DNA from: Halarcobacter ebronensis
GTDB lineage: Bacteria; Campylobacterota; Campylobacteria; Campylobacterales; Arcobacteraceae
Assembly (NCBI RefSeq): GCF_013201825.1
Contig: NZ_CP053836.1
Coordinates: 1,736,001-1,800,000, forward strand
Direction of reading: 5' to 3'
DNA: 64,000 nucleotides
Shown here: positions 6,300-29,093 of the stretch, piece after piece
Layout of the letters: the number at the start of each line of letters is the position of its first letter
How positions within the stretch are numbered: the stretch's first letter is position 1
Notes under the pieces: generated by a model
Seen by the model: only the letters and a program-made list of their open reading frames with translations
Told to the model about the DNA's origin: nothing
Database searches by the model: none
Position numbers and translations under genes: made by a program

Positions 6300-6626
6300 T
6301 TAAAATGAGCTAGACATAATCTCGTCATCTAAGTATTCATCAATTTTTTTTACTAAATCTTCATAAGAGATTTTACCATCTTTGTTAAATAGAACTATCT
6401 CTTCACCAAAATCATTTTTTATGAAGTGCTCTTTTTCAATAACCTTTTCATATAATCTTCTAATATCTGTTGGAGAGTCTAAATCATTGTACAAAAACCA
6501 ATTTGCAGTTGTATTTTCATATCTTATTAGACCATAAGTATTCTCTTTATTGACATAGTCTTGAATTGTACCATTTTCAAAAATAGCACCAACAACCATA
6601 TCACTATCATTTAAAATCATTTCCAT
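6300..6626 (-). CDS. Conserved-looking hypothetical protein, 108 aa
   Basis: Acidic soluble protein that I do not recognise. No signal peptide or membrane segment. The C-terminal part (FNKDGKISYEDLVKKID, about residues 80-97) resembles the second half of an EF-hand calcium loop and helix, but a full DxDxDG loop is not present, so this is only a resemblance. It lies directly upstream of the DEAD-box helicase on the same strand with 11 bases between, suggesting one transcript. The ATG start is the first Met; MEMIL offers an alternative Met two codons on. Confidence 0.6.
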   Translation of the reverse strand: MEMILNDSDMVVGAIFENGTIQDYVNKENTYGLIRYENTTANWFLYNDLDSPTDIRRLYEKVIEKEHFIKNDFGEEIVLFNKDGKISYEDLVKKIDEYLDDEIMSSSF

Positions 6627-6657: not shown

Positions 6658-6681
6658 AATAATAACAAGATTTTCATTAAA
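6658..6681 (+). repeat. 24-bp direct repeat, copy 1, upstream of the first coiled-coil gene
   Basis: The 24 bases here are identical to 7372-7395 (core AACAAGATTTTCATTAAA). Each copy sits about 88-89 bases before the start codon of one of two related genes (6770 and 7485). Conserved position as well as sequence suggests a shared regulatory site or promoter part rather than random similarity. It contains no clear inverted symmetry. Confidence 0.7.
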
Positions 6682-6769
6682 TCAAATGAAGTCTATATTT
6701 AATACTTATCATTTATATTTATAAAAGCTTTGTAGTGCTAGTATCTTTTTATCTACTAAAGGAGTCTCC

Positions 6770-7318
6770 ATGGCAATGACTATTGATGAAACTTCAAACC
6801 AAAATAAGAATCTTTCTAGCTCTACACAAAATGAGACAACAAAAAACAATAGCTCTTTTTTAAATGATTTAGAAAATACATTAAGAGATAAAATAAAAGA
6901 TGAAAATGGTGTACAAGAGCAGATAAATGGCAATAATGAACTAATTAACATTATGAAAAATGAGATTGAAGAGTTATCAAAAGATAGAGCCTATAAAGTA
7001 CCTCAAGAAAAAATTGACCAAATTTTACAAAAAATTAAAAGTAGTATTCAAAACAGTATAAGAAATGAGTTCTCAAGCTTCACAAACAGTAGTAGCACTG
7101 CTCAAGATATTCAAAAAAGAGTTGAAGAATTTAATGAAAAAATATCAAATATTGAACCATCAAACTATTTACAACTGCAAGATGAACTCTACTCTATTTT
7201 AAATGATAGTATGGACTTGTTATATAATTTAAATAGAAATAGCAAAAATAAAAGTAGTCTAAATAGCTACAGTAGTTATAACAGAGCTTTTTTTGAAGCC
7301 CAACTAGGAAAGTATTAG
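6770..7318 (+). CDS. Asn/Ser-rich coiled-coil protein of unknown function, 182 aa
   Basis: Not recognised. Hydrophilic protein without signal peptide or membrane segment: a disordered Asn/Ser/Thr-rich N-terminus (residues 1-30), helical heptad-like stretches (about 30-60 and 75-155), then a Ser/Tyr-rich tail (NSYSSYNRAF). The central segment EKIDQILQKIKSSIQ matches EKLNEIIDQIKKNLE of the gene at 7485, and the C-terminal DELYSILNDSMDLL region matches DKLKDIFKLSQELV, so the two are probably diverged paralogues. Strong ribosome site AAAGGAG before the ATG. A disordered polar N-terminus is typical of flagellar type III export substrates, but that is a guess. Confidence 0.65.
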   Translation: MAMTIDETSNQNKNLSSSTQNETTKNNSSFLNDLENTLRDKIKDENGVQEQINGNNELINIMKNEIEELSKDRAYKVPQEKIDQILQKIKSSIQNSIRNEFSSFTNSSSTAQDIQKRVEEFNEKISNIEPSNYLQLQDELYSILNDSMDLLYNLNRNSKNKSSLNSYSSYNRAFFEAQLGKY

Positions 7319-7333
7319 GGTTTTAAAGTGTTC

Positions 7334-7360
7334 AATAATCTTTTATGATAGATTATTTTG
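7334..7360 (+). terminator. Weak AT-rich hairpin after the first coiled-coil gene
   Basis: AATAATC (7334-7340) and GATTATT (7351-7357) form a seven-pair stem with a ten-base loop, followed by TTG. It could attenuate read-through into the second coiled-coil gene. With only A/T-rich pairs it is a weak candidate. Confidence 0.3.
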
Positions 7361-7371
7361 ATGAAGTTAAA

Positions 7372-7395
7372 AATAATAACAAGATTTTCATTAAA
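7372..7395 (+). repeat. 24-bp direct repeat, copy 2, upstream of the second coiled-coil gene
   Basis: Identical over 24 bases to 6658-6681 and at the same distance from the following start codon. The surrounding sequence differs, so the conservation is local to this element. Confidence 0.7.
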
Positions 7396-7484
7396 GCTTA
7401 AAAGGGTTTATAAAATGGCACATCTTTAAACTTTTTAAAAGTTATTTGTGTTAATATTAAGATATTCTACATAAAGGGGAGTTT

Positions 7485-8000
7485 ATGGAAATATCTAACA
7501 ATAAAATGATAAATCAAAATTACGAGATGATAAATAATAATAAAAGTGAATCAGAACAAAAAGACGCTTCTTTTGCAGAAGCACTAAAGGAAAGTCAAAA
7601 GAATAGTTCAAATAATGTAAACACTAAAAAAGAAGAAAGTCCTGTTGAACAAATGCTTAAAGAAATAAAAAAAATTATAAATTCAGGTATAAATGAAATT
7701 ACAGAAGAGAAGCTGAATGAAATTATAGATCAAATAAAAAAGAATCTTGAAAAAGCTAGTAAAAGAAACTTCTCAGCAGATAAAATGCAAGAACTTTTCA
7801 AAGAGTTGCAAAATTTAATAAAAGATATAACAAATAATATGAGTGGAACTATTTTTGATAAAGCAAAGATTGAAGATAAACTGAAAGATATTTTTAAACT
7901 AAGTCAAGAATTAGTTGAAGAATCAAAAAGTTTATTGGATTATGGAAAAAATTCTATAGGTATGGAATTACAAAAATACCAAAATATCAAAATAAATTAA
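7485..8000 (+). CDS. Lys/Asn-rich coiled-coil protein of unknown function, 171 aa
   Basis: Not recognised. Soluble, highly charged, no signal peptide. An N-terminal polar segment includes DASFAEALKESQK (about residues 28-40), a pattern also seen near N-termini of flagellar hook-associated regulators, then three amphipathic helices to the end. It resembles the 182-aa protein at 6770 in its middle and C-terminal thirds. Good ribosome site AAAGGGGAG. Eighteen bases separate its stop from the MltC-type transglycosylase, which may be co-transcribed. Confidence 0.65.
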   Translation: MEISNNKMINQNYEMINNNKSESEQKDASFAEALKESQKNSSNNVNTKKEESPVEQMLKEIKKIINSGINEITEEKLNEIIDQIKKNLEKASKRNFSADKMQELFKELQNLIKDITNNMSGTIFDKAKIEDKLKDIFKLSQELVEESKSLLDYGKNSIGMELQKYQNIKIN

Positions 8001-8018: not shown

Positions 8019-9179
8019 TTGACAAGATTAAAAGTATTAATATTTTTCTCTATTTTTTTATTTACAGGATGTGGAGTCAATGATGTTTATAACATCACAA
8101 GGGCTGCAATTAGTAAAGATCCCTCTGCTGCACTACAATCTCTTGCTACTTCAAAAGCAATAAATTATGCTTCAAACCCAACAAAATTATCAAAAGATAT
8201 TAAAGCATTATCTTCATTTATTGAAAAAATAAGCAATAATTGGGGAAATGATAATGTTAAAATTCCAAAACAAAAAGAGTATGTAAAGTATATGCAAAAC
8301 TACAAAAGTAGAGCATTGATTGATTTTGATAATGGAATTGTAACAGTAGAGACAATAGATGAAAAAAATCCAAAAGATAGTCTGCAAAATGCAATTGTAA
8401 CTACACTTTTACTTCCTGATGATCCAAGAGCTGCTGATTTGTTTGGGGCAAGTGAGATAAAACTTGGTTCTACTCCTTATTTACTAGGAGAGATAAAAGA
8501 TGATCAAAACAAAGATATTCGATATGAGTGGAGAGCAAATAGATTTGCAGAGGTACTAATAAAAAATAGTTTCAAACAAAAAAAGGTAAAAGTAGAATCA
8601 AAAGAGGTAAATGTCTCTTATGTAACTATCCCTATGGTTAAAGACCATACTTCAATTAGAGTTGCAAAAGTAAAACCAATCGTTGAAAAATATTCACAAA
8701 AATATGGTGTAAGTAGAAACTTAATTTATGCAATAATAAAAACAGAGAGTAATTTTAATCAATTTGCAGTAAGTAATGCAGGAGCTTATGGACTTATGCA
8801 AATAGTTCCAAGTAGTGCAGGAAAAGACGCCTATGAATATGTAAAAGGGAAAAATTCAGAACCATCTACTTCATATCTTTTTAATGCACAAAATAATATT
8901 GAATTGGGCACTGCTTATTTAAAAATGTTAAATAATCAATATCTTGGAAATATACAAAATGAAGTATCAAAAGAGTATTGTGTAATAAGTGCATATAATA
9001 CAGGAAGTGGTAACGTACTTAGAACATTTTCAGAAAATAGAACAAAAGCAGTAAATATAATAAATAGTAAATCTGCCCTTGAGGTTTATAATACATTAAA
9101 GAGTGATTTACCTTATGAGGAGACAAGAAGATACTTAAAAAAAGTAATAGACTCTAAAAAAGAGTTTACTAATATTTAA
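8019..9179 (+). CDS. mltC: Membrane-bound lytic murein transglycosylase, MltC type
   Basis: Outer-membrane lipoprotein that cleaves the glycan strands of peptidoglycan. A lipobox LFTGC ends the signal peptide at about Cys18. The N-terminal half matches MltC (KEYVKYMQNYKSRALIDFDNGIVTVET, split here only by description; TTLLLPDDPRAADLFG). The SLT domain holds the catalytic Glu in KTESNFN, then GLMQIVP and SAYNTGSGNVLR. 386 residues, slightly longer than E. coli MltC. It starts at TTG 8019; an ATG overlapping the upstream stop is out of frame. The upstream neighbours are the two coiled-coil proteins. Ribosome site is weak, so coupling to the upstream gene is possible. Confidence 0.88.
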   Translation: MTRLKVLIFFSIFLFTGCGVNDVYNITRAAISKDPSAALQSLATSKAINYASNPTKLSKDIKALSSFIEKISNNWGNDNVKIPKQKEYVKYMQNYKSRALIDFDNGIVTVETIDEKNPKDSLQNAIVTTLLLPDDPRAADLFGASEIKLGSTPYLLGEIKDDQNKDIRYEWRANRFAEVLIKNSFKQKKVKVESKEVNVSYVTIPMVKDHTSIRVAKVKPIVEKYSQKYGVSRNLIYAIIKTESNFNQFAVSNAGAYGLMQIVPSSAGKDAYEYVKGKNSEPSTSYLFNAQNNIELGTAYLKMLNNQYLGNIQNEVSKEYCVISAYNTGSGNVLRTFSENRTKAVNIINSKSALEVYNTLKSDLPYEETRRYLKKVIDSKKEFTNI

Positions 9180-28262: not shown

Positions 28263-29093
28263 ATGCAAGTAGAAAACAATGTACTATATGACCAATCGGT
28301 ATATTTAAATACTACCCAGTCTTTAAATAAAATTGCCACAGGGAAAGAATTAAATAGTGCTGCTGATAATGCTGCATCATTAGCTATTTCAGAAGAGTTA
28401 ATTGCTCAAACAAGCGGTATTTCACAAGCTATTGATAATACAAATAGTGCAATTGCAACAATGCAAATTGGTGATCAAGCGTTTAATGAACAATCAAAAA
28501 TTTTAGATCAAGTTAAAGAGAAACTATTACAAGCTTCTACATCTACAACTTCGCAAGAAGGTAGAGAATCTTTGTTAAATGATATTCAAGGACTTATGGA
28601 TAATCTAAATAATATTGCAAGTAGTACAAACTATAATGGACAAACTCTACTTCAAAATGGAATAAATGATTCTTCTGCTACAACTGGACTTCAATTCCAA
28701 TCAGGAGAAGATTCTTCATCACTTATTGAGACAGACTCTATCCAATCTAATACAACAGGACTTGGTTTAGATTCTTTAGTTTCACAAGATGCAAGTACTT
28801 TTACAATAGATGCTGCAAGAAGTTTTTTAGATCAAGTTGATAATGCATTAAACACACTAAATGATTATAGATCAAACTTTGGTTCATCACAAGTGCAACT
28901 AGAAAGTAATGGAAGAAGTCTTCTTTCAGACTATACACAAACAAGTAATTCTTCATCTATATTAACTGATGTTGATTATTCAAAAGAAGTAGCAAATTTT
29001 AGTAAACAAAATATTTTAGCTCAAATTGGTGCTTATGCTGCTGCACAATCTAATAATATAAACCAAAGTATTGTAACAAGAGCACTATCTTAA
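28263..29093 (+). CDS. Flagellin, short form
   Basis: Filament subunit of 276 residues, exported by the flagellar type III system. The N-terminal domain has SLNKIATGKELNSAADNAASLAISE, matching the conserved SLxKLSSGxRINxAxDDAAGLAI, and the C-terminal domain ends DYSKEVANFSKQNILAQIGAYAAAQSNN (shown in part). The variable central region is very short (about residues 135-180), rich in Ser, Thr, Asn. The usual first motif MxINTNxxxLxAQ is replaced by MQVENNVLYDQSVYLN. Gene symbol is withheld because flaA and flaB cannot be told apart. Followed by a hairpin terminator; no second flagellin is adjacent. Confidence 0.9.
   Translation: MQVENNVLYDQSVYLNTTQSLNKIATGKELNSAADNAASLAISEELIAQTSGISQAIDNTNSAIATMQIGDQAFNEQSKILDQVKEKLLQASTSTTSQEGRESLLNDIQGLMDNLNNIASSTNYNGQTLLQNGINDSSATTGLQFQSGEDSSSLIETDSIQSNTTGLGLDSLVSQDASTFTIDAARSFLDQVDNALNTLNDYRSNFGSSQVQLESNGRSLLSDYTQTSNSSSILTDVDYSKEVANFSKQNILAQIGAYAAAQSNNINQSIVTRALS

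Follow-up and report, generated by a model that had tools for sequence, protein, structure and literature searches.

Tandem duplicates of a candidate flagellar export-substrate family, with a copied 24-bp element, in Halarcobacter ebronensis

The window analysed here is the whole 64,000-nucleotide stretch of Halarcobacter ebronensis contig NZ_CP053836.1 (positions 1,736,001 to 1,800,000), and positions are given in window coordinates unless stated otherwise. Two plus-strand coiled-coil genes lie between a divergent gene and an mltC-like gene, and the features of the locus are as follows:

6300 to 6626, minus strand: divergent 108-aa gene (MEMILN...), with no curated family match and a weak DUF2714 match below cut-off.
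6658 to 6681, minus strand: copy 1 of the 24-bp element, TTTAATgAAAATCTtGtTATTATT, putative sigma70-type promoter region of the 108-aa gene.
6659 to 6664, minus strand: TATTAT, read from the sequence as a putative extended -10 hexamer for the 108-aa gene, with G at position -14.
6736 to 6744, plus strand: TGCTAGTAT, putative extended -10 for coiled-coil gene 1; in the alignment of five leaders TG, TA and TAT do not vary.
6770 to 7318, plus strand: coiled-coil gene 1, 182 aa, diverged duplicate, with FxxxPhi motif F30-LNDL.
7372 to 7395, no strand assigned: copy 2 of the 24-bp element, apparent tandem duplication product; the divergent gene is absent here.
7449 to 7457, plus strand: TGTTAATAT, putative extended -10 for coiled-coil gene 2, from the five-leader alignment.
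7485 to 8000, plus strand: coiled-coil gene 2, 171 aa, orthologous to the single gene that the sister genomes carry, with FxxxPhi motif F30-AEAL.
8019 to 9179, plus strand: mltC-like lytic transglycosylase gene (TTG start) with Mltc_N and SLT domains, 18 bp after gene 2.

The 24-mer AATAATAACAAGATTTTCATTAAA was found at 6658-6681 and 7372-7395 with 24/24 identity between the copies, at 88 bp (6682-6769) from the start codon of gene 1 and 89 bp (7396-7484) from that of gene 2, which confirmed the identical elements described in an earlier, sequence-only reading of this DNA. The window held no other site with three or fewer mismatches to the 24-mer, and 100 dinucleotide shuffles of the window gave 0 such sites, excluding chance within the window. 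The same reading had described the surrounding DNA as different, which held only in part: the two leaders (element to start codon) were 57/95 identical (z 4.0; 0/1000 shuffles as good). By inspection, both leaders have extended -10 sigma70 layouts, and alignment of five leaders gave TGnTAnTAT as a common extended -10 and AAAGG as a common ribosome-binding site.

The two encoded proteins are related, as had been claimed, and the similarity is real but weak. BLASTP gave 24% identity over 42 aa (E 0.012), and a profile built from three sister-genome orthologues matched protein 2 with an E value of 2e-20; for protein 1 the value was 3e-5, against 0.24 for the best shuffle. Pairwise structure prediction, proposed earlier as a check, gave helix layouts that agree between the two proteins, with low model confidence (pLDDT just 54 and 53).

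The two genes are tandem duplicates. Judged from the alignments, the single gene of the sister genomes has its orthologue in gene 2, and gene 1 is a fast-diverged copy; given the identity of the leaders, the simplest history would be that copy 2 of the element arose by tandem duplication of element, leader and gene together. At two positions both element copies carry the same base and the sister genomes another, an indication that the duplication took place in this lineage. Two-domain family members, in which tandem copies of the coiled-coil domain are fused (about 290 aa; L149:1453-2313 and L174:1453-2316), were also observed, and they indicate that duplication in the family is recurrent.

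Relatives of the pair were detected by profile search in 46 of 104 Arcobacteraceae genomes, covering 11 of 20 genera; a scan of genome contigs with protein 2 gave no relatives. Outside the Arcobacteraceae, a 299-genome sample across the order yielded one marginal match (E 9e-5, within a 676-aa protein). No Pfam or NCBIfam model scored above cut-off in the members scanned, PHROGs returned two isolated weak matches and nothing else, and the PDB profile matches, mostly designed helical bundles and coiled coils, were uninformative. At 30% mean column identity, the only invariant positions in 31 members were M1 and F30. The gene neighbours, named by eye, vary by genus (mltC, comEC/ovoA, rsmD/dppC, tlyA and GGDEF genes). 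The best reading of the sequence comparisons is an undescribed, fast-changing, lineage-specific Arcobacteraceae family of candidate early-type flagellar export substrates.

The assignment to export substrates was derived from the N-terminus. In Salmonella, the export of early flagellar subunits requires that the extreme N-terminus be hydrophobic and that a gate-recognition motif be present (residues 36-40 in FlgD), and is best with about 24-26 residues between the two (PMC8983047). The family N-terminus has MxI as its hydrophobic start, then a polar, disordered stretch of about 26 residues and then FxxxPhi from F30, a spacing that fits the one reported for early subunits. A phenylalanine at residues 29-41 followed by I, L, M or V at +4 was present in 36/40 members vs 9/63 other proteins of this genome, and the phenylalanine fell within 29-34 in most members; 39/40 members had one or more of ILMVFAC among residues 2-5, which is weak as a criterion by itself. 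Almost every Arcobacteraceae FlgD that was read carries FLKLM, or a motif close to it, at 31-34. Within the genus, FxxxPhi stands at 29-37 in FliE and FliK (32-37 in FliK).

An N-terminal profile was built from 26 members located away from the window's locus, a few of them other members from the genus, and was used to rank 447 proteins of this genome, drawn from the window itself, from the flagellar loci and from 20 stretches at even spacing. The flagellar loci were included deliberately, and the ranks therefore test discrimination, not discovery. FliE ranked first, followed by the two window proteins (2 and 3), FliK (7), FlgC (12), FlgE (42) and FlgD (111). When the three sister-genome orthologues were added, with the window pair still left out, FliE remained first (E 2.7e-5), with FliK at 5 and FlgC at 15; across profile versions, FlgE ranked 40-42 and FlgD 111-123. 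With a reversed-sequence profile as control, FliE fell to rank 372. In the reverse direction, the best non-FliE match of a FliE profile was window protein 2 (E 0.02; AUC 0.81), and a FliK profile did not recover the family (AUC 0.48). Among known early substrates, a resemblance to the family is seen just in FliE and FliK and, more faintly, in FlgC. A profile of the members without their first 45 residues matched FliE at E 0.029 only, for which reason derivation of the family from FliE is not claimed. Export by the flagellar apparatus, put forward in the sequence-only reading, thus gained in-silico support from the two-part early-substrate signal and from a profile that picks FliE and FliK of this genome. 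Such a profile can flag export candidates located outside flagellar gene clusters.

Co-occurrence with flagella was assessed with FlgD in 88 good genomes: the family was present in 40/79 FlgD-positive vs 0/9 FlgD-negative genomes (p 0.003, a statistic that ignores phylogeny), and one incomplete FlgD-negative genome carries a family member. The family genes sit outside flagellar clusters, beside genes that are not flagellar, and the curated models of Pfam and NCBIfam revealed no homology to rod or hook structural subunits. Since about half of the FlgD-positive genomes have no detectable family copy, the family would most likely be an exported accessory and not a core component of the flagellum. 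Two further genes were recorded: a flagellin-like gene (MQVENNVLYDQSVYLNTTQSLNKIATGKELNSAADNAA...) at 28263-29093 (plus strand) in the window, about 20 kb from the gene pair, and an EF-hand-like protein (NDTNSDGALSIDEVD...) at L210:1881-2756 (minus strand), encoded in this genome in the cluster that holds flgD and flgE.

The same observations bear on a different reading, in which the proteins are cytoplasmic coiled-coil proteins whose conserved FxxxL binds another partner and is not an export signal. Short F-based motifs serve many partners, and both the location of the genes and their absence from so many FlgD-positive genomes would suit such a role; however, the position and spacing of the motif match the flagellar signal, and the profile puts FliE first of the 447 proteins. 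We consider this reading a serious but somewhat doubtful contender.

The sequence-only reading had taken the 24-bp element for a shared regulator or sigma-factor site controlling the gene family. Against such a site, the 20-base core of the 24-mer has exactly two exact copies in the 3,170,683-base genome (3.17 Mb), both at this locus. The next-best sites for the core numbered 12, each with 3 mismatches, and a reversed control gave 4 sites. A regulon search with the 24-mer and a genus consensus added no strong site outside that locus, in the genome or across the genus, and the other family members that were examined have no copy of the element upstream. A genome-wide control switch or regulon site is not supported, and this false lead is removed by the present work. 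HP1043-type sites, which consist of two TTTAAG hexamers spaced 5 bp apart (PMC8345958), were also considered and rejected; such a pair is absent from the element.

The element instead accompanies the divergent 108-aa gene. In 13 of the 14 genus genomes with readable upstream sequence, the element can be recognised about 31-35 bp ahead of this gene; in the other (G004) it has decayed to 7 mismatches. The element is kept where a single coiled-coil gene is present (G001, G014, G015), where mltC is directly next (G003, G008, G009, G010) and where neither a coiled-coil gene nor mltC is adjacent (G002, G006, G011, G013). Read on the minus strand, TTTAATnAAAATCTnGnTATTATT, the element ends in GnTATTAT, which aligns with TATAAT before the 108-aa gene in other genera (GTTATAATTGCA, AAATATAATCC), and greA shows the same layout (TTTTATAAAAATTTCGGTATTATA). 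From this alignment and the greA layout, we infer that the element is a sigma70 promoter of the divergent 108-aa gene. In addition, a recurring 3-mismatch site, TTTTATNAAAATTTCGNTATTATA, precedes greA in the four genomes whose context was read, a position that suggested a promoter and not an operator. The greA promoter TTTTATAAAAATTTCGGTATTATA is itself strongly conserved (L129:988-1011, with matching sites in L130, L131 and L132).

The promoter reading leaves one observation unexplained, namely the 24/24 identity of copy 2, which lies in diverged surroundings and has no divergent gene. Its perfect preservation could mean that it was copied recently, that it serves gene 2 in some way or that it holds an antisense start. 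Another reading of the element is a regulator binding site that would coordinate the coiled-coil genes, and mltC where those are absent, acting on both sides of the divergent region. Besides the preservation of copy 2, such a site could draw on the 22/24 positions in common with the element before the single gene of three sister genomes. We nevertheless regard it as unlikely, because strong sites are confined to this locus, the element stays with the 108-aa gene where the coiled-coil gene and mltC are both non-adjacent, and other family members have no copy upstream. An antisense start, in which copy 2 would be a putative promoter whose RNA runs antisense to the end of gene 1 and so tunes that gene, appears improbable; copy 2 would fire toward gene 1, provided that the minus-strand reading is right. 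Least probable of all is the functional link once suggested with MltC, in which the coiled-coil proteins would act together with the enzyme encoded beside them: gene 2 ends 18 bp before mltC (21, 21 and 45 bp in three sister genomes) and the two are probably co-transcribed, but mltC, present in 13 of the 16 genus genomes, is preceded by a coiled-coil gene in just 4 of those 13, and family genes elsewhere have the other neighbours named above.

The best joint explanation, which we hold to be on balance probable, is that the two genes are tandem duplicates of an early-type export-substrate family and that the 24-bp element is the copied promoter of the 108-aa gene. The duplication would have copied this promoter together with the leader and the gene, and each coiled-coil gene would be transcribed from an extended -10 of its own (TGnTAnTAT), close to the start codon. 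If the family works as Salmonella FlgD does, FxxxPhi would dock the protein on the FlhB cytoplasmic domain, the hydrophobic start would then engage the export gate, and the helical protein would leave via the flagellar channel. Arcobacter is reported to have lost FliA, FlgM and RpoN, and how its flagellum is controlled and built without them has been described as unknown (PMC2147049, PMC9321776). An unannotated family with an early-type export signal provides named candidates for this question. It is a long shot that the fast-evolving exported family forms a lineage-specific part or checkpoint of Arcobacteraceae flagellar assembly, for example one in which export reports the assembly state.

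Among known systems, Fed and Cia of Campylobacter are flagellum-dependent secreted proteins and belong to the sigma28 regulon. Likened by description, the family would resemble them in flagellar export without being a flagellar part. In contrast to that sigma28 control, Arcobacter is reported to be without FliA and RpoN (PMC2147049, PMC9321776). The N-terminal layout of the family is like that of the hook-length protein FliK, in which FxxxPhi stands at 32-37 in the genus, whereas the Flg_hook domain (PF02120) of FliK is missing from both window proteins at E 1. With this domain absent and a canonical FliK encoded elsewhere in all 16 genus genomes, identity or shared origin with FliK is rejected. 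Each of the 16 genomes encodes two Flg_hook-match proteins, one adjoining fliR and one elsewhere; a second, weak Flg_hook (FliK C-terminal) protein of this genome lies just past the window end (L223:4725-6806; G000:C1 about 1802724-1804805). Compared with the early (rod/hook-type) substrates FliE, FliK and FlgD, the family differs in its location outside flagellar clusters, its patchy presence among Arcobacteraceae genomes (46/104), its very fast divergence and the lack of a detected rod or hook domain, but it is like them in its hydrophobic start, its polar N-terminus and an FxxxPhi at about residue 30, with FliE as the best profile match to the family in this genome.
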